From NCBI GenBank assembly GCA_007135085.1, contig SLJM01000334.1:1-42444 (forward strand): 42,444 bases of DNA. Reading direction: 5' to 3'. Numbering within the stretch: position 1 is the first letter of the stretch; every line of letters starts with the position of its first letter. A program made the position numbers and the translations under genes. The DNA is from Myxococcales bacterium (GTDB lineage Bacteria; Myxococcota_A; Bradymonadia; Bradymonadales; Bradymonadaceae). Below the pieces are notes generated by a model. It worked only from the letters and a program-made list of their open reading frames with translations. It did not search any database and was not told the DNA's origin. Of the stretch, positions 1,662 to 10,919 are shown piece after piece.

Positions 1662-1710
1662 GCCAGGAGCGCTGGTTCGCAGATTTGCGAATCAGCGCTC
1701 CTGGCGTTTT
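1662..1710 (+). terminator. 20-bp hairpin terminator
   Basis: The arms at 1662-1681 and 1686-1705 are complementary over 20 bp with a single G-U pair and a 4-nt loop (GATT), followed by GTTTTC. It would stop transcription from the barrel gene. Its right arm contains the stop codon (TCA at 1692-1694) of the convergent peptidase gene, so the hairpin also forms the 3' end of that mRNA. Confidence 0.8.
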
Positions 1711-3008
1711 CGGGCGTCGAAGTTTCTCATATCCGGTTCAGCCTGGACGGAGGGGACGCCAATATTGAATAGGTAGTCTCGCCAGTGCTGGCGCATATGT
1801 CCGAAATATGGACCCCGTCCGGGGCCCCACTGCCGCTCCAGGCTATCCCAGCGGGCGAAGAGAATCTCTTCGAAATAATCATCATTATCGTCGATAAACT
1901 CCCACAACGCCTGGGCGATGGGATAATAGGACCAGTGCCAACGCTCCTCCATATGGGCGATCCGATCGTCGTCGAAATCGACGTAGGGTTGGAAGAAGCC
2001 GTAATCCAGGGCGTTGGCGTCGAGCCATCGCCAGTCGCCGTGGAGGGCGCCGCCGTCGGTAAAGAAGACGGGGTTGAGCCCCAGTATATCAACGTCGGTG
2101 CCCCAGTGATGGCGAGAGAGGCCGGGAGCGGCTGATGCCTGGAGGATCTCCCACTCCCGATCTTCTTTGGTGAGGGTGCGCGTCCAGCATCGCTGGTGAC
2201 GCTCGTTGTCGGGGTTCCAGATTCCCTGGCCGATGCGGCATTTTATGGCGGCCTCTTCGGAGATTCGGTTGAAGGGCCGTCCGGTGAAGCGAAATTTGCG
2301 ATACCAGATAAAGCCCTGGGTGTGGATATTGCGAAAGGTCGAGCGCGTCAGGGCGTCGACGGTGCGGTCCAAAAGACGGTCATTGCCGGCGACGGCCTCG
2401 GCCAGGGCGGCGGCGCTGCGGTAGCGACCGCCGAAGTGGGCCTGGATGCTTCGGAATAGACGAATGTCGAATTGGTCGCTGCCGGCGGCGTCGACGAGCT
2501 CGGCGATCATGCAGCGGAGCTGGTTTTCGACTTCGGCACCGGCGATCGAGGGGGGCTGGCGCAGGCCCAGCAGCCAGGCATTGAGGCTGTCCCGATCGAT
2601 AAGTGCCAACAGGCCGACGGCCTCGCGCCATTGAGCATGGCGCTCTCTCAGATAGGCGCGATCGCCGAAATGGCGGCAGGTGTGGGGGCCCTCTAATTCG
2701 AGATAGGCGAAGAGCTGATCGGCGCTCCATTGCTCGTGGTGAGCACGTTCGATGAGGGCTTTAGTGCGCGGCGATTCGCCCAGATCTATATGCGATGAGA
2801 GCTCGTCTCTGGTAGAATATTCTTCATCGTCAGCAGGAGCATCGTTCGGTTCGCCGTAAGCCACGGTGGCGAAGGCTAAAAGAGCAGCGCTCAACAACAA
2901 CGCGGTGTAACGGGCAAGGCAGCAATGCACGGGGCTGGACCATGTGGAAGTCAGAAAATAGACGCCTAAGAGATAGCATACCCTCCGTAGGGGTGTCGAA
3001 TTTTGCAC
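1692..3008 (-). CDS. Exported peptidase, M15/VanY D-Ala-D-Ala carboxypeptidase-like
   Basis: The C-terminal half carries the zinc-site signature of the M15 (VanY/LAS) peptidases. SRHHWGTDVDI matches the SxHxxGxxxD motif, with the His and Asp as metal ligands, and EERWHWSY matches the later catalytic Glu and third ligand His. Relatives cut D-Ala-D-Ala or peptidoglycan stem peptides. The N-terminal 250 residues are Cys-poor, helical and unfamiliar. A signal peptide (LARYTALLLSAALLAF...VAYG) indicates export. The GTG at 3008 gives the longest form, but its purine-rich motif abuts the codon and it would overlap the divergent gene by 67 bp. A GTG at 2930 directly before the signal peptide is at least as likely. 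Substrate specificity is inferred from the family. Confidence 0.68.
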   Translation of the reverse strand: MQNSTPLRRVCYLLGVYFLTSTWSSPVHCCLARYTALLLSAALLAFATVAYGEPNDAPADDEEYSTRDELSSHIDLGESPRTKALIERAHHEQWSADQLFAYLELEGPHTCRHFGDRAYLRERHAQWREAVGLLALIDRDSLNAWLLGLRQPPSIAGAEVENQLRCMIAELVDAAGSDQFDIRLFRSIQAHFGGRYRSAAALAEAVAGNDRLLDRTVDALTRSTFRNIHTQGFIWYRKFRFTGRPFNRISEEAAIKCRIGQGIWNPDNERHQRCWTRTLTKEDREWEILQASAAPGLSRHHWGTDVDILGLNPVFFTDGGALHGDWRWLDANALDYGFFQPYVDFDDDRIAHMEERWHWSYYPIAQALWEFIDDNDDYFEEILFARWDSLERQWGPGRGPYFGHMRQHWRDYLFNIGVPSVQAEPDMRNFDARKRQER

Positions 3009-3885: not shown

Positions 3886-4623
3886 TCAGCGCCCGTTGGT
3901 CTGGTGGTCTTCGGGCAATGAGACGTTGATCGCCTTTGGGTATTTTTTGCCGTCATTGCCGCCGTATTGAAAGTCGACGGGGATCACCTCGCCGGGGACG
4001 TAGGCCGGGAGTCGAGCCCGCAGTTCGTCGTCGACGACATTGGCGATGTGGAAGAAGAATTTCCGCTCCTCATCGGTCTGAATAAACCCGAATCCCTTAT
4101 CCGTAAAGTAGGCGATGACCCGTCCCTCCAGGTCTTCGCCGATATCGAGCTCTTCGTCGAAGGACATGCGCTCCAGGCGTTCGATATTCTCTTCGAGATC
4201 GAAGAAGTGGAACGAACAATCCTCCTGGATGCGGATCCCCGTGGCCTTGACCTGGGAATAGCGGCGGTCAAAGAGGTAGGACAGGCAGGCTCCGAAGGCT
4301 ACCAGCAAGCCACCAGCGCTAAGAGAGGTATCGACCAGCTCGATATAGATCGCTTTTAAGACGATCCCACGCCGGGCGGCCTGTAAAAATTTGTCCTGCC
4401 GCTCCAGGTCGTCGACCGAGTCGGTGACGTGGACGCCCAGATTCACGTGGGCGTGCACGTCCTGGAAGCGGGTAATGGTAAAGTCCAGCAAGTATCGTTG
4501 GGCGAAATTGGGATCGCTTTCAACGTCGGCCCCGGCGCGCTCGAAATACTCTTTGAGTTCTCGAGTCAGGTCCTGGTGCCGCTCATCGGTGGAGAGCTTG
4601 TTCACTTCATCTCCGAGTGCCAT
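3886..4623 (-). CDS. Cold-shock-domain protein with unknown N-terminal domain
   Basis: The C-terminal 75 residues form a cold-shock (OB-fold) domain with both nucleic-acid-binding motifs visible: RNP1-like KGFGFI and RNP2-like FFFHI. The N-terminal 165 residues are not a family I recognise. They contain a basic-acidic helical start, a LGVHVTDSVDDLE stretch and a hydrophobic segment (LSAGGLLVAFGACLSYLF) that may be a membrane helix. The protein is about three times the size of a free cold-shock protein. GAGGTG lies 5 nt before the ATG, supporting the start. The gene converges on the protease gene with a 14-bp gap. Single-stranded RNA/DNA binding is inferred from the C-terminal domain only. Confidence 0.75.
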   Translation of the reverse strand: MALGDEVNKLSTDERHQDLTRELKEYFERAGADVESDPNFAQRYLLDFTITRFQDVHAHVNLGVHVTDSVDDLERQDKFLQAARRGIVLKAIYIELVDTSLSAGGLLVAFGACLSYLFDRRYSQVKATGIRIQEDCSFHFFDLEENIERLERMSFDEELDIGEDLEGRVIAYFTDKGFGFIQTDEERKFFFHIANVVDDELRARLPAYVPGEVIPVDFQYGGNDGKKYPKAINVSLPEDHQTNGR

Positions 4624-5046
4624 AGTATCACCTCACAGCATCTTTCAATCGCGAGAGCGCCGGCCCCGTCCGCGGGTGTCTCGGGTGCGCGTGTCTTCCG
4701 CGAAATTGGAGACATGAACGCGGCGATCGGTGTCGAAAGAAGATCGCTGCGCGACGGACCCTCGCCCGCGGTACCGGTCCATGCCTGCCGTGTGAGATCA
4801 AAGCTAAGCATGGACGGTACAACCGCCAACCCCATCGAGGAGTCAGCCGGAGGCGCTCAGGGATATATAAGCACCACCAGGGGGCTGAACATTCCCACAG
4901 ATTCTTGGAGGCCCTCGTTGGACCCGCCGCGGCGCCGATGATGGCGGGGGCTTTGACAGTGAGACCCAAAATTCATTACAGCAAAGTGGAAATACTTCGA
5001 GCAACCACAGCCGTTGTGACGATGACGCAACTCATAGGTGAAAAAA
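4624..5046. other. Divergent intergenic region (423 bp)
   Basis: No gene is supported here. The open frames are continuations of shadows and lack start signals or protein-like composition. It should hold the promoters of the two divergent genes. A TTGACA at 4953-4958 is the only good promoter element I see; a TATATA stretch at 4864-4869 lacks a matching -35 element on either strand. Confidence 0.5.
4953..4982 (+). promoter_or_regulatory. Candidate promoter of the ExbBD-containing operon
   Basis: A perfect -35 TTGACA is followed after 18 bp by TACAGC, a weak -10 (3 of 6). Transcription would begin near 4990, giving a leader of about 55 nt before the ATG at 5047. Confidence 0.3.
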
Positions 5047-5508
5047 ATGAGCGACCAGGAAAATAATAGTGGCAATGCCCCGATGTCGGTGGGCGGATCA
5101 TTGAGCGAGGAACAGGCGCGCATTGCTGAGATCCATCGCGGGTTCGTGCGCGAGATGGATCGCAGCCTGGGCAATGCCTACGGCACCGGCGGCGGTACCG
5201 TGTTGGGAGTGCTGGTATCGGTGCTCATCGCCGGGTGGTGGATGGGGTGGCTGACCTCGGTCATTCTCTGGGTTTCCGGTGTGACCGCCGTGCTGGCCGC
5301 CCTGTATATGGTGCGCCGACGGATCCACGCCAAGCGAGATAAGCTGCGTCGGCGAGTGGAGAAATATTGCGAGGTCAACGATGTGTCCGTCGATCTCTTA
5401 TGTCTTTATTTTGAGCAAGACCAGACCTATCCGTTTTTCTGCGATATTTTCCAGGAGCCGCCCCACCAACCCCTGGAGCACCAGCAACAGGTGAGTGAGC
5501 AGACCTAA
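5047..5508 (+). CDS. Small inner-membrane protein of unknown function
   Basis: The start is ATG 5047, 6 nt after AGGTG; a GTG three codons upstream is actually part of that ribosome-binding site. The 153-residue product has a polar helical N-terminus (SLSEEQARIAEIHRGF), two membrane helices (GTVLGVLVSVLIAGWWMGWL and SVILWVSGVTAVLAALYMV), a very basic stretch (RRRIHAKRDKLRRRVEKY) and an acidic, Gln-rich tail. No family is recognised. It lies 33 bp before exbB and is probably its first operon partner, so a role in assembling or anchoring the motor is possible but unproven. Confidence 0.65.
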   Translation: MSDQENNSGNAPMSVGGSLSEEQARIAEIHRGFVREMDRSLGNAYGTGGGTVLGVLVSVLIAGWWMGWLTSVILWVSGVTAVLAALYMVRRRIHAKRDKLRRRVEKYCEVNDVSVDLLCLYFEQDQTYPFFCDIFQEPPHQPLEHQQQVSEQT

Positions 5509-5541: not shown

Positions 5542-6207
5542 ATGACATCTTTTTTGCAGTGGTTCGAATACGGCGGGGTGATGCTCATTCCCATCGCCGT
5601 GGCCTCCGTCGTAGGGCTGGCCCTTTTTATCGCCCGCTGGCGGGCTCACGATCGAGCTCGTGTGATGCCAACAGGGCTTCGCCTGGCGGTGCTGAAAGCG
5701 GTGGGCGACAAAAATTGGGACAAGGCCCAAGAGCTTTGCGCCCGCCAAGACTCGCCGCTGGGACGAGTCTTTGGGGAGGGGCTTCGCTTTCGAGGCGGCG
5801 AACGGGCCGCGATTCGCAGCGCCATGGAAGATGTGGGTCGGCGCCAGATCCATCATCTGGAGCGCTACGTGGGCGCCATCGGTGCTCTGGCTTCGGTGAC
5901 CCCTTTGATGGGGTTGTTGGGCACCGTGCTGGGGATGATCCGGGTCTTTCAGGATCTGGTCCAGGAGGCCGGCGCTCAGGGGGTGGTCGATCCCACCCAG
6001 CTGGCCGGCGGGATCTGGGAAGCGCTGGTGACCACCGCGGCAGGGCTGGCCGTGGCGATCCCCCTCTATCTGGGCTATCGCTATTTGCTGGGCCGATTAG
6101 ATGCCACCTCGGTGGATCTGGAAGAGGCGGCGGCGCAGATGCTCGATCTTCTGGCCCCGCCCCCTCAGGAGGGCCTGTCGGGCACTGACGGCGAGGAGGG
6201 GCGGTGA
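5542..6207 (+). CDS. exbB: MotA/TolQ/ExbB-family proton channel protein
   Basis: The product (221 residues) has the ExbB/TolQ layout: an N-terminal membrane helix (GGVMLIPIAVASVVGLALFIARW), a cytoplasmic segment with PLGRVFGEGL, and two C-terminal helices. These include the hallmark GALASVTPLMGLLGTVLGMIR and LVTTAAGLAVAIPLYLGY. With ExbD it forms a proton-driven inner-membrane motor that energises outer-membrane transport or envelope constriction. Sequence alone does not separate ExbB from TolQ. Its stop overlaps the exbD start by 4 bp (GTGA), so the two are translationally coupled. There is no TonB, TolA, TolB or Pal gene in the window. Confidence 0.9.
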   Translation: MTSFLQWFEYGGVMLIPIAVASVVGLALFIARWRAHDRARVMPTGLRLAVLKAVGDKNWDKAQELCARQDSPLGRVFGEGLRFRGGERAAIRSAMEDVGRRQIHHLERYVGAIGALASVTPLMGLLGTVLGMIRVFQDLVQEAGAQGVVDPTQLAGGIWEALVTTAAGLAVAIPLYLGYRYLLGRLDATSVDLEEAAAQMLDLLAPPPQEGLSGTDGEEGR

Positions 6208-6650
6208 ATTTTCGCGGCGCAAATAAAGGGCGCCGTCGCGTCGAGGCCACCCTGGAGATGACTCCCCTCATCGACGTGATCTTTTTGCTCCTCATCTTCT
6301 TCGTGATGACCACCACCCCGGCGATGAGCGCCGTGGAGCGCCTGGACGTGGATTTGCCCGATGCCGGTAGCGGCCAGGCCGTCGAGGAGGTCGACGAGAT
6401 GCGCATCGTCCTGCGGGTCTACCCCGACGCAGCGGTGGCGATGCGAATCGGCGACCACGGCCAGGAGCGCCGCATCGATGAGGTGGGCGCCGAACTGAAG
6501 GGGGCGGCCCAGAACCATCCCAACGCCACGGTCTGGGTCCAGGGCGATGTCGACGCCAGCCACGGGGCGGTCATCGAGATCCTCGATGCGGCCAGCGAGG
6601 CGGGCTTCGATCGGGTCCATATGGCGGTGCGACCGGCCCCTTCCAGGTAG
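6204..6650 (+). CDS. exbD: ExbD/TolR-family motor subunit
   Basis: The 148-residue product has a short basic N-terminus, one membrane helix beginning with MTPLIDVIFLLLIFFVM, and a periplasmic domain ending in a DASHGAVIEILDAASEAGFDRV segment. The Asp of PLIDV is the family's proton-carrying residue. It starts with GTG inside the exbB stop and is preceded by GAGGAGGGG. It should form the ExbB5ExbD2-type complex with the upstream product. The periplasmic domain would bind the cell wall or an unknown energy transducer. ExbD versus TolR identity cannot be settled by eye. Confidence 0.9.
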   Translation: MNFRGANKGRRRVEATLEMTPLIDVIFLLLIFFVMTTTPAMSAVERLDVDLPDAGSGQAVEEVDEMRIVLRVYPDAAVAMRIGDHGQERRIDEVGAELKGAAQNHPNATVWVQGDVDASHGAVIEILDAASEAGFDRVHMAVRPAPSR

Positions 6651-6746: not shown

Positions 6747-7250
6747 ATGCGATTGGCAGCAGTGTTGGTATTTATTGGTGTGGTTCTGGGAGCGATTTAT
6801 TTCGTCTTTTCTCATCCCGCACAGGATCGGCTCGAGGAATTGGAGCGAGAGCTCCAGCAATTGCAGGCCCAGAACGAGTCCCTGGCCGATGAAAATCAGG
6901 ACCTGGAGCGCCAGATTCTGGCCCTTCGCGACGATCCGCGAGTGGCTGAGCGGCGGGCCCGGGAGGCCGTGGGCTTGGCCCGGCCCGAGGAGTTGATCTT
7001 CCAATTCGATGAGCCTCGCCAGGAGACGTCGGTTCAGGTGCGCCTCCAGGTGGGCACGGAGCATCTGGAGTTGGCCGGGCGGGTGGTGGAGCTGCCAGAC
7101 CTGGCGGAGCAGCTTCAGATATTGCAGGAGCAGATCCCCCAGATGACCTTGTCTGTCACCGTCGACGACGACGTGGGTCCCATCGAGCGACAACGGGTGA
7201 TCGACATCGTCGAGGAGTCGCCGCTGGGGCCGGTGCGATGGGGCGATTAG
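6747..7250 (+). CDS. FtsB/DivIC-like protein with an apparent ExbD-like tail
   Basis: ATG 6747 is chosen because GGAGAG lies 7 nt upstream and the product then starts with a membrane helix (LAAVLVFIGVVLGAIYFVF). A coiled coil follows (about residues 26-65), then the septum-initiator signature around RDDPRVAERRAREAVGLARP, as in FtsB/DivIC divisome proteins. The last 65 residues are extra. VVELPDLAEQLQILQEQIP, LSVTVDDDV and RVIDIVEESPLGPV line up by eye with the periplasmic domain of the ExbD encoded just upstream (DEVGAELKGAA, VWVQGDVDA, VIEILDAASEAGFDRV). The FtsB part is fairly certain and the ExbD-like tail is inference. The gene is 96 bp behind exbD, same strand. The 27 in-frame codons upstream of ATG 6747 do not look coding. 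Confidence 0.7.
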   Translation: MRLAAVLVFIGVVLGAIYFVFSHPAQDRLEELERELQQLQAQNESLADENQDLERQILALRDDPRVAERRAREAVGLARPEELIFQFDEPRQETSVQVRLQVGTEHLELAGRVVELPDLAEQLQILQEQIPQMTLSVTVDDDVGPIERQRVIDIVEESPLGPVRWGD

Positions 7251-7298: not shown

Positions 7299-7328
7299 AC
7301 GGAGAAGCAGCCATGGAGGCCGCGATGA
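7287..7328 (+). CDS. 13-residue leader ORF before the diguanylate cyclase
   Basis: An ATG at 7287 is preceded, after 6 nt, by AAAGGAGGT, the strongest ribosome-binding site in the region. It encodes MDRPTEKQPWRPR and stops at TGA 7326-7328, which overlaps the ATG of the cyclase at 7325 as ATGA. This is the layout of a translationally coupled leader peptide. Whether it is translated is not known; in the alternative view the cyclase starts at ATG 7313 and the ORF is incidental. Confidence 0.45.
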   Translation: MDRPTEKQPWRPR

Positions 7329-9517
7329 GCACGAAGACTCGCAGTACTGTGCAACCACGAAAAATCAAGGGAGAGCGCCGCGGCGCCGCCGTGGCAGTGA
7401 CGGTGGCCGCCCTCTACGCTCTGGGATTCGTGGGCGTCGCCGCCATCGCGGCGCCGATCCATGGGGTGATCCTCGCCGCCCTGATAGGGGGAGCGGCCTT
7501 TTTGCGCTATCGACGGCGCACCACTCCCGGAGGTCAGGGACTGCCCACGGGAATCGGCGAGGCTACTCTGGCCCTGGTGGCCGCTATGGTGGCGGCCCGC
7601 TGGGCTGGGATTATGGGAGTGGAGGTCTATGCCCTGGTCTTTTTGGTCGTCGCCTGGGCGATGAGTACGGCATCAAAGCCAGTGGCGGCTGCCACGGTGG
7701 GCCTGGCGGTCGTCACCGAGGGGGCCAGCCATTATCTGGGAAGTGCAGCGGCGGTGGGGCTGGGACCGGAGCCGGTGGCGACATGGACGGCCATCGACTG
7801 GTCGGTTCTGGGGGTCAGATGGGCCCTGATCGCAGCGTTTGCCACGCTGGCCTGGGCGTTGGTCGGTCGCCGCGCTCAACAGCGGCGGCGCGAATATGAG
7901 CGAGAAGTCGAGCGCCAGCGAAAGCAATTGCTCGAAGAGGCCCGGGAGTTTCGACTCATTCACGCCGGCCGCTCAAACGCCGCGATCGGCCGCAGGGAGG
8001 CCGAGGAGCTCATCGTTCGCGACGCCGTCGACGCCGTCCACCACACGGTCTATGTCACCCTCGATATGGTCAAGACGGCGCTCAAGGCCGATACGGTGAT
8101 CCTCCTGTGGTTCGATCTGAGAAATGAAAAGTTGCGCATCAAAGAGCTGGTCAGCGACAGCGACGATATCGTTGAGGGAGCTATCGACCCGGCGGGCGGG
8201 GTGATCGGCGGGATTACGCGAAAACGCGATGTGGTGCGGCTGTCCGGCCTTCGCGCCGGGTTTCGGGGATTGTCCTATTATCGGCAGGCCCCGGAAGCCA
8301 CGGAGTTTATGGGAGCGCCGGTCATCGAACAGGGGCATCTTCGCGGTGTTTTATGCGTCGATCGCAGCGCCCGCCGCGGCTTCGACGCCGACGAGCAGCG
8401 GGTCGTCGAGGAGGCCGCCGATTATGTGATGCGCGCCGTGGAAAATGAGCGCATGATCGCCACCATCGAGCGCACCCGTTTTGAGGTCAGCAGGTTTTAT
8501 GAGGCCAGCCGTCAGCTCAACGGGGTGCTCACCCCGGATGAGGTCTACCGGGTCGCCCTGGAGAGCGTGAGCCAGATCGCGGACTACGATTTTGCGGCGC
8601 TGACCCTGTACGACGAGCAGGAGGACCGACACCAGGTGGTCCTGGTCGATGGCGTGGTCAGCGACGCGGTCATCGGCCAAGATTGGGAGGCCGTGGCCTT
8701 TGATCCCAACCAGGGGCTGGTCTCCATGGTGGTGCACAACCGCCACTATTTGCCCGTCGGTGGCCGGCTGCGCGACCCGGGGGCGACGGTGCTCACCGAC
8801 GCCCAGGATTTTTCGGGGCTCCAGAGCTTGATCGTCTTGCCCCTCATCGCCCAGGACAAGCCGGTGGGGACGATGATAGTTGCCCACCGCGACAGCGGCC
8901 AATTTCCCACCCAGCGCCGGGAGATGCTCGAGGTGATCGCCAACCAGGTGGCGGTGACCGTCCAGAACGCCCGGCTCTATGCTCAGATGGAGACCATGGC
9001 CAAATTCGACGCCCTGACCGGCCTGGCCAATCGACGCAACTTCCAGACCCGTCTCGACGAGGCGATGGCACGCCACAAGCGCGCCGGTCGCACCTTCGGG
9101 CTGGTCCTGACCGATATCGACCACTTCAAATCGGTCAACGACACCTATGGCCATCCCGTGGGCGACGAGGTGCTGCGTCATGTGGGGCGGGTCTTTCGCG
9201 AGGGGCTTCGAGAGGTCGACCTTCCCGCTCGCTACGGTGGCGAGGAGTTCGTGCTTATCTTGGAAGACACCGATCTCGAAGGGGCGCGCCAGGTCGCCGA
9301 TCGATTGCGTGAGGCGATCTCGGAACTCGAATTCCAGACCGATCAGGGCCTGCTGCAATGTACGATCAGTATGGGCATCGCCATGGGCCCCTGGGACAGC
9401 GACGAGCCCCATGAGCTGGTAGACCTGGCCGACCAAGCGCTGTACCATTCCAAGGAGAACGGACGAAATCGCGTCTCAATTTACCGTGAGGTCATCTCCT
9501 CAGGGGTGGCGGCCTGA
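7325..9517 (+). CDS. Membrane-bound diguanylate cyclase with two GAF domains
   Basis: The protein (730 residues from ATG 7325) begins with about six membrane helices (residues 15-180), then a short coiled linker. Two GAF-like sensor domains (about 200-360 and 380-545) follow, then a C-terminal GGDEF domain. The active site reads RYGGEEF near residue 637, and RxxD (REVD) lies exactly five residues before it, so both catalysis and c-di-GMP product inhibition look intact. It should make c-di-GMP at the inner membrane in response to ligands of the GAF domains. ATG 7325 is preferred over ATG 7313 because GGAGG lies 5 nt before it and the same GGAGGCCGCGATG context starts another gene at 33824. It is probably co-transcribed with exbBD. 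Confidence 0.88.
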   Translation: MSTKTRSTVQPRKIKGERRGAAVAVTVAALYALGFVGVAAIAAPIHGVILAALIGGAAFLRYRRRTTPGGQGLPTGIGEATLALVAAMVAARWAGIMGVEVYALVFLVVAWAMSTASKPVAAATVGLAVVTEGASHYLGSAAAVGLGPEPVATWTAIDWSVLGVRWALIAAFATLAWALVGRRAQQRRREYEREVERQRKQLLEEAREFRLIHAGRSNAAIGRREAEELIVRDAVDAVHHTVYVTLDMVKTALKADTVILLWFDLRNEKLRIKELVSDSDDIVEGAIDPAGGVIGGITRKRDVVRLSGLRAGFRGLSYYRQAPEATEFMGAPVIEQGHLRGVLCVDRSARRGFDADEQRVVEEAADYVMRAVENERMIATIERTRFEVSRFYEASRQLNGVLTPDEVYRVALESVSQIADYDFAALTLYDEQEDRHQVVLVDGVVSDAVIGQDWEAVAFDPNQGLVSMVVHNRHYLPVGGRLRDPGATVLTDAQDFSGLQSLIVLPLIAQDKPVGTMIVAHRDSGQFPTQRREMLEVIANQVAVTVQNARLYAQMETMAKFDALTGLANRRNFQTRLDEAMARHKRAGRTFGLVLTDIDHFKSVNDTYGHPVGDEVLRHVGRVFREGLREVDLPARYGGEEFVLILEDTDLEGARQVADRLREAISELEFQTDQGLLQCTISMGIAMGPWDSDEPHELVDLADQALYHSKENGRNRVSIYREVISSGVAA

Positions 9518-9545
9518 GGTCCCACCTCTTTTTGAGCGGGGCACC

Positions 9546-10919
9546 ATGAAGAAAAATTTCATCATCGACACCAACGTGCTGCTCCACGACCCGCGGGCGA
9601 TCTTTCGGTTTGCCGACAATCGGGTCATCATCCCCATCTATGTCATCGAAGAGGTCGATACCTTCAAGCGGGAGCTCTCCGAGCTTGGGCGCAACGCCCG
9701 TGAGGTGAGCCGGATCCTCGACGATTACCGGCGCAAAGGAAGTCTGCGTGAGGGCGTGGAGTTAGACGGGGGCGGTCTGCTAAAGGTCGCCTTTGCCAGC
9801 GGCGACGACGCCTCGCGATTTTTGCACTCCGAGAAAAAAGACAATCTGATCTTGAGTACCGCCCTGGAGGTCAAGCGCGACGATCCCACCGTGCCCTGTA
9901 CGCTGATCACGAAGGACGTCAACCTGCGGGTGCGGGCCGACGTGCTCGGTCTGGACGCCGAGAATTACGAAGAAGAGGATCTGGCCTCCATCAGCGAGCT
10001 CTATCCGGGGGCCGCTGAAGTGGAGGTTCCCAACGAGTGGATCGAGGCCATGCACGGAGAGGAGGGCCTGGCCGTCGATCTTGGTGATCTGGCCAGCCGT
10101 CGCGCCGGCGGCGGCCGCGGTGGCGTGGGGCACGGATTCTATACCAACGAATACCTCTGGCTGCGCCGTGAGGATGGACCACAGAACTCGCTTGGCCGTT
10201 TGACCATCGATGAAGATGATCCCCGCCGCGGGGTCGTCCGGCCCTTGAGTCGGGCCCATGAGCAGGTCTGGGGCATCAGCCCCCGAAATAAAGAGCAGGC
10301 ATTTGCCCTGGACGCATTGCTCGACGACTCCATCGATCTTGTCACCCTGATCGGAAAGGCGGGCACGGGAAAGACCTTGATGGCCATCGCCGCCGGACTG
10401 CGCAAGGTCACTGACGAACAGCGCCACCACAAATTGGTGGTCAGCCGGCCCGTCTTTCCCATGGGCCGCGATATCGGCTATCTGCCGGGGACGGTGGAGG
10501 AGAAGCTCGACCCCTGGATGCGGCCCATCTTTGACAACGTGGAGTTTTTGATGGGGATCAGCCATGCCGACCGGCGATCGGGCCGGGGAGCTGACGAGCT
10601 GCGCTCGATGGGGATCATCGAAATCGAACCCTTGACCTATATCCGCGGTCGATCCCTTCCCAATCTATTCATGATCGTCGACGAGGCTCAGAACCTGACC
10701 CCCCACGAGGTCAAGACCATCTTGACCCGTGTGGGCCAGGGCACCAAGATCGTGCTCACCGGCGATCCCTACCAGATCGACAATCCCTACGTCGACAGCG
10801 AGTCCAACGGCCTGACCTATGTGGTCAACCGCTTCAAGGAGCAGTCCGTGGCGGCGTCGGTAACGCTGTTTAAGGGCGAGCGCTCCCGGTTGGCGGAGAT
10901 GGCGGCCAACCTTCTGTAA
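9546..10919 (+). CDS. PIN-PhoH family ATPase
   Basis: The 457-residue product joins an N-terminal PIN nuclease-like domain to a PhoH ATPase domain, the PhoH2/YlaK arrangement. The PIN part shows its acidic residues in IIDTNVLLHD, IEEVDTFK and TKDVNLRVRA. The ATPase has Walker A GKAGTGKT near residue 275 and Walker B LFMIVDEAQN, followed by TGDPYQID. Family members are linked to RNA unwinding and cleavage. ATG 9546 is 28 bp after the cyclase stop, and MKKNFIIDTNV matches the usual PIN N-terminus, so the upstream TTG extension is discarded. It is the last gene before the strong terminator at 10938. Confidence 0.9.
   Translation: MKKNFIIDTNVLLHDPRAIFRFADNRVIIPIYVIEEVDTFKRELSELGRNAREVSRILDDYRRKGSLREGVELDGGGLLKVAFASGDDASRFLHSEKKDNLILSTALEVKRDDPTVPCTLITKDVNLRVRADVLGLDAENYEEEDLASISELYPGAAEVEVPNEWIEAMHGEEGLAVDLGDLASRRAGGGRGGVGHGFYTNEYLWLRREDGPQNSLGRLTIDEDDPRRGVVRPLSRAHEQVWGISPRNKEQAFALDALLDDSIDLVTLIGKAGTGKTLMAIAAGLRKVTDEQRHHKLVVSRPVFPMGRDIGYLPGTVEEKLDPWMRPIFDNVEFLMGISHADRRSGRGADELRSMGIIEIEPLTYIRGRSLPNLFMIVDEAQNLTPHEVKTILTRVGQGTKIVLTGDPYQIDNPYVDSESNGLTYVVNRFKEQSVAASVTLFKGERSRLAEMAANLL

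Follow-up and report, generated by a model that had tools for sequence, protein, structure and literature searches.

Motor genes and an extended FtsB at the locus

The window is a 42,444-nucleotide stretch of DNA from a Myxococcales bacterium. A pair of ExbB/ExbD-type motor genes lies directly upstream of ftsB in this window, and the ftsB frame runs on beyond the FtsB part into a further domain. The features considered here, all on the plus strand, are as follows.

5542..6207 (+): exbB, ExbB/TolQ-family motor subunit (PF01618 MotA_ExbB, E 1e-28)
6204..6650 (+): exbD, ExbD/TolR-family motor subunit with the TPLID proton-carrier motif (D24) and a periplasmic domain (PF02472, E 1.5e-24)
6747..7250 (+): ftsB with an ExbD/TolR-like C-terminal domain, 167 aa (PF04977, E 2e-14)
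6750..6812 (+): FtsB membrane helix, residues 2-22, without an acidic residue (translation; helix in the AlphaFold model)
6813..6926 (+): FtsB coiled coil, residues 23-60 (translation; helix in the AlphaFold model)
6927..7010 (+): FtsQ-binding-type segment, FtsB residues 61-88, with E68, R72, R79 and E82 (numbered as the salt-bridge residues of E. coli FtsB, PMC6134095)
7011..7031 (+): variable FtsB linker, residues 89-95 (entropy; low model confidence)
7032..7247 (+): ExbD/TolR-like periplasmic domain, FtsB residues 96-167 (profiles, fold, family alignment)
7313..9517 (+): GAF-GGDEF diguanylate cyclase, conserved downstream neighbour (PF00990, PF01590)
9486..10919 (+): PIN-PhoH ATPase, often the last gene of the block (PF13638, PF02562)

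The initial annotation had read a membrane helix, a coiled coil and the FtsB/DivIC signature in the 6747-7250 protein. The translation agrees with this reading, and the PF04977 (DivIC/FtsB) match, at 53.5 bits against a cut-off of 28.9, was the only one in the genome above that cut-off. A second, weak PF04977 match belonged to an FtsL-like gene located between mraW and ftsI in the mraZ-mraW-ftsI division cluster. The ATG at 6747 is preceded by GGAG, and the same start is kept in relatives. In E. coli, FtsQ binding by FtsB residues 64-87 involves two salt bridges (E68-R79 and R72-E82) together with the aromatic residues F84 and Y85 (PMC6134095). The window protein has E68, R72, R79 and E82 at identical positions of its own sequence, followed by I84, F85, Q86 and F87, and R72 and E82 are invariant among 20 relatives. 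FtsQ (PF03799) was present in 18 of the 21 family genomes and was not found in the window's own assembly (G000), where its absence probably reflects an assembly gap or divergence. The POTRA-domain matches of this genome were tried as FtsQ candidates and, by reading, resemble BamA/Omp85-type proteins.

The FtsB membrane helix has neither the proton-carrying Asp of ExbD/TolR (residues 2-22 contain no acidic residue) nor the SHLS-type motif of TolA/TonB, as it contains no His and the spacing is also lacking. The linker at residues 89-95 showed the highest mean column entropy within the protein and low confidence in the structural model. The extra tail claimed earlier was read directly from the frame, which continues for about 75 residues after the FtsB part. 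Judged from the sequence, the 6747-7250 product is the cell's sole, complete FtsB with a second, predicted periplasmic domain.

Both motor genes are typical of their families. The adjacent ExbD bears its TPLID motif in the membrane helix, and its nearest solved relatives are TolR proteins. A scan for promoters and terminators between exbD and ftsB returned nothing. Elsewhere in the window, a small membrane protein without a family match is encoded upstream of exbB (5038-5508), and a VanY-type D-alanyl-D-alanine carboxypeptidase (1692-3008, minus strand) lies close to the division and motor genes. The protein at 3886-4623 (minus strand) has a weak C-terminal cold-shock domain match and an N-terminal part of about 160 residues without assignment. 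A tandem repeat at 105-383, with TTNHxPQ units in one frame, is probably a non-coding repeat array.

Resemblance of the FtsB tail to ExbD and TolR

The tail (residues 96-167) had been reported to align with the periplasmic domain of the upstream ExbD, and profile comparison reproduced this alignment. A profile of 20 tails matched an alignment of the neighbouring ExbD proteins over 72 columns in the periplasmic part of ExbD (hhalign 94%, E 1.3e-7). The score of 44.2 exceeded those of 200 column-shuffled tails (maximum 21.8), and the controls with the reversed tail and with ExbB gave 13.9 and 11.8, respectively. When different ExbD groups were compared with the tail alignment as possible sources of the domain, four-sequence subsets of the local ExbD scored 25-37, against 27.8 for a Ton-type pair and 23.8 for a further ExbD clade, values that do not single out the neighbouring exbD as the origin. 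Taken singly, the tail of the window protein had no Pfam match, and the family alignment was therefore required. Among ten single tails compared with Pfam, three had PF02472 ExbD as their best match in the same register (E 0.0025, 0.026 and 0.031), all under the curated Pfam cut-off; no other Pfam family recurred convincingly among the ten.

We then searched 379 genomes of the phylum with the tail-only profile, which recovered 20 family members and, at E <= 0.001, five further places. Among the latter, four were ExbD genes, matched in register over the periplasmic domain; the fifth (G356) was a compositionally biased ORF and not ExbD. The profile did not reach the ExbD genes of the window's own genome, and an hmmsearch of PDB sequences gave coincidental short matches only.

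The structure predictions agreed with the profiles. AlphaFold2, with an input alignment of two sequences (the window protein and the relative L032), folded the isolated tail as strand-strand-helix-strand-helix-strand; in the model of the whole FtsB the order was closely similar, with the second strand split and a moderate tail pLDDT of about 80. Foldseek searches with the whole-protein model placed ExbD/TolR structures at PDB ranks 1-7, including 8P9R (E 5.8e-4, TM 0.78 by target length) and TolR 5BY4 at rank 4, so that the ExbD/TolR fold anticipated for the tail was recovered. All ExbD/TolR chains except one outranked every match to another fold. With the lower-confidence model of the tail alone, ExbD again came first, at an E of only 0.08. 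The viral structure library gave no match below 1e-3. Conservation in the tail is comparatively high just past strand 3 (V143-D153, including R148, Q149, R150 and D153) and poor in the last strand, which is short and corresponds to the edge that binds the D-box in ExbD. Taken together, these results indicate that the protein is almost certainly a complete FtsB joined to an ExbD/TolR-like periplasmic domain.

Distribution, selection and gene order

Of the 21 family genomes, 20 carried the tail, spanning 13 genera, and the one without a tail match is 77% complete. It was absent from all 36 other genomes of the class. Outside the family, FtsB continues for no more than about 35 residues beyond the FtsQ segment, and any extensions are proline- or acid-rich. 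In three close relatives of one genus, the tail dN/dS was about 0.10-0.14, close to that of the rest of FtsB; the tail is under purifying selection. Its distribution points, as far as seen, to a conserved trait of one family with a single gain, and an ExbD/TolR-type domain appears to have been joined to FtsB in the family ancestor. Within the family, neither a tail without an ExbD-like fold nor relatives with a missing or unrelated tail appeared.

We considered the possibility that the ExbD resemblance arose by chance or reflects a merely shared small alpha/beta fold, or that the tail is a neutral leftover. Such an origin would fit the weak similarity of single sequences, including the window's own tail with its lack of a Pfam match, and the failure of the tail profile to reach ExbD in the same genome. 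It is highly improbable in view of the shuffle and reversal controls, the four ExbD genes among the five non-family matches and the seven leading Foldseek ranks; the low tail dN/dS in the one genus and retention in 13 genera also speak against it.

Conservation of the fusion, which the initial annotation had proposed to check, held in the family. Of the 20 tail-bearing members, 15 have the exbB-exbD pair immediately ahead of ftsB; it was not found there in four (g6, g11 and g8 twice), all of which keep the tail, although three of these four have only about 2.7-4 kb of contig upstream of ftsB. In the remaining member (L007) the contig ends too early upstream of ftsB to show exbBD. The g6 genome carries exbBD behind the GGDEF gene on the opposite strand, and an orthologous ExbD is present in all five genomes without visible linkage. 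L053 and L054, from two further families of the class, also show the order exbB-exbD-ftsB-GGDEF, with a tail-less FtsB and in one of them with phoH next; phoH follows the block in several genomes. Because the block recurs in these tail-less families, it is older than the tail. The ftsB-GGDEF pairing extends further in the phylum (L076 and L081), which hints at a link between c-di-GMP and division.

The genome has separate ExbD loci of Tol and Ton type, at C398 with a TonB-like gene, at C466 with TonB/TolA-like and TolB-like genes, and at C372 with a tandem ExbD pair; the TolA and TolB calls were made by reading and weak family matches. These loci have TonB/TolA-like genes of their own and the ftsB-side pair has none nearby, which therefore leaves the latter without a transducer of its own in view. 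At C372 (G000:C372:16083-17348), two adjacent divergent ExbD-family genes (L037 and L038) lie downstream of an ExbB gene and are followed by one for a long TonB-like protein. Tandem ExbD pairs occur in further genomes of the family.

Possible roles of the tail and comparison with known systems

The likeliest use of the tail, to which we assign a probability of roughly 0.37, is that of a docking domain for the adjacent ExbD, which would couple the motor to the FtsQLB complex. In this mechanism the first 88 residues would act as in other FtsB proteins, the coiled coil pairing with FtsL and, to judge from the conserved residues, the helix-strand segment pairing with FtsQ. The tail would pair with the periplasmic domain of the neighbouring ExbD, which has the same fold, and the state or force of the ExbBD motor would pass to FtsQLB and on to septal wall synthesis. 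The periplasmic domains of ExbD and TolR dimerise (PMC10907165, PMC4646322); therefore, pairing is a known behaviour of this fold, and four tests identify the tail as ExbD/TolR-like. Docking is also consistent with the exbB-exbD-ftsB order in 15 of 20 members and its presence before the tail in L053 and L054, with the orthologous ExbD retained in all four members with separated genes, and with TonB-like genes adjoining the ExbDs at C398 and C466 and not the ftsB-side pair. Moreover, activity of Tol motors at division sites is known, as is a contact of TolQ with FtsN (PMC3831626).

Several observations count against docking. In E. coli, FtsQ is bound at its membrane-distal end by FtsB residues 64-87 (PMC6134095), so that the tail is probably far from the membrane. 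The periplasmic domains of ExbD, by contrast, are thought to remain close to it. In addition, the four members with unlinked exbBD keep the tail, the FtsB membrane helix lacks the His and the spacing of the TolA/TonB motif, and the last strand, where ExbD has its D-box edge, is short and variable. The stronger proposal that the proton-driven ExbBD acts directly on FtsQLB by a handshake between the same-fold domains of ExbD and the FtsB tail, so that the proton gradient gates or pulls septal wall synthesis, is on balance doubtful. If true, it would constitute a direct mechanical link between the 5:2 motor and the core divisome.

Alternatively, the FtsB tails might pair with each other. In models of the E. 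coli complex, FtsLB is a dimer of heterodimers; two tails could act as a clamp on its pair of FtsB chains and determine whether the complex is on or off, leaving the motor as a mere neighbour or domain donor. ExbD/TolR domains do form homodimers, and the ExbD dimer contact lies in the strand-3/helix-2 loops, while the D-box strand is held on an edge (PMC10907165). The corresponding strand-3/helix-2 region, with R148, Q149, R150 and D153, ranks with the tail's better conserved stretches, and the tail is retained where exbBD is unlinked. This self-pairing, which would leave the old exbBD-ftsB gene order unexplained, is possible though somewhat unlikely.

A role of the tail in binding peptidoglycan, by which FtsQLB would be anchored to the cell wall or could sense it, is rather unlikely. 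TolR(60-133), which lacks the strand-swapped ends and is similar in extent to the tail, binds sacculi; the longer TolR(36-142) fails to do so (PMC4646322). The expected membrane-distal position would bring the tail closer to the wall; against this, a conserved ligand pocket was not identified in the tail, and, to our knowledge, peptidoglycan binding by ExbD-type domains has been shown for one truncated TolR only.

Docking on another partner, either a TolA/TonB-type D-box strand or a division protein not yet known, as ExbD binds D-box peptides, seems improbable. The tail shares its fold with the ExbD/D-box complexes 8VGC and 8VGD, yet where ExbD has the edge strand that recruits the D-box (residues 130-134), the tail has its last strand, which is short and variable. 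A comparatively well conserved V143-D153 region together with such a last strand favours a pairing surface over D-box capture.

With docking as the preferred reading, the building of the septum may be physically tied to a proton-driven motor. This bears on the recruitment of Tol-type motors to the division site and on the coordination of inner-membrane, wall and outer-membrane constriction. A motor-type domain built into a core division protein offers a concrete candidate contact point, and loss of one small domain makes the coupling testable in this family.

Compared with E. coli FtsB, the window protein has the same membrane helix, coiled coil, FtsQ helix-strand segment and E68/R72/R79/E82 numbering, and is the sole copy in its genome; E. 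coli FtsB has no ordered structure beyond residue 87, whereas the window protein continues with a predicted folded domain of about 72 residues. That domain shares the strand-strand-helix-strand-helix-strand order of the ExbD/TolR periplasmic domain (PF02472; 8P9R, 8VGC, 5BY4, 2PFU and 2JWK), with in-register profile and fold matches. It differs in not being carried on a proton-carrying ExbD helix, in its short, variable last strand and in lacking the strand-swapped ends of TolR(36-142). The TPH-vWA proteins encoded beside tolQ are likewise unusual domain combinations with TolQ/ExbB-type motors; they keep the pore helix with its Asp and replace TolR, whereas in the FtsB fusion a periplasmic part is added and the pore helix is absent (PMC12204202). 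As with TolQRA-Pal at the division site, a TolQR-type motor and the divisome are involved, here as gene neighbours in the window; the link reported in E. coli joins TolQ with FtsN, in contrast to a Tol-type domain on FtsB itself. We know of no FtsB with a Tol-type or ExbD-type domain, and a search of the full text of open papers, with subscription papers outside its scope, returned no relevant work on FtsB with ExbD or TolR. In the FtsB-tail protein, two domain types that are each known occur in a new combination.
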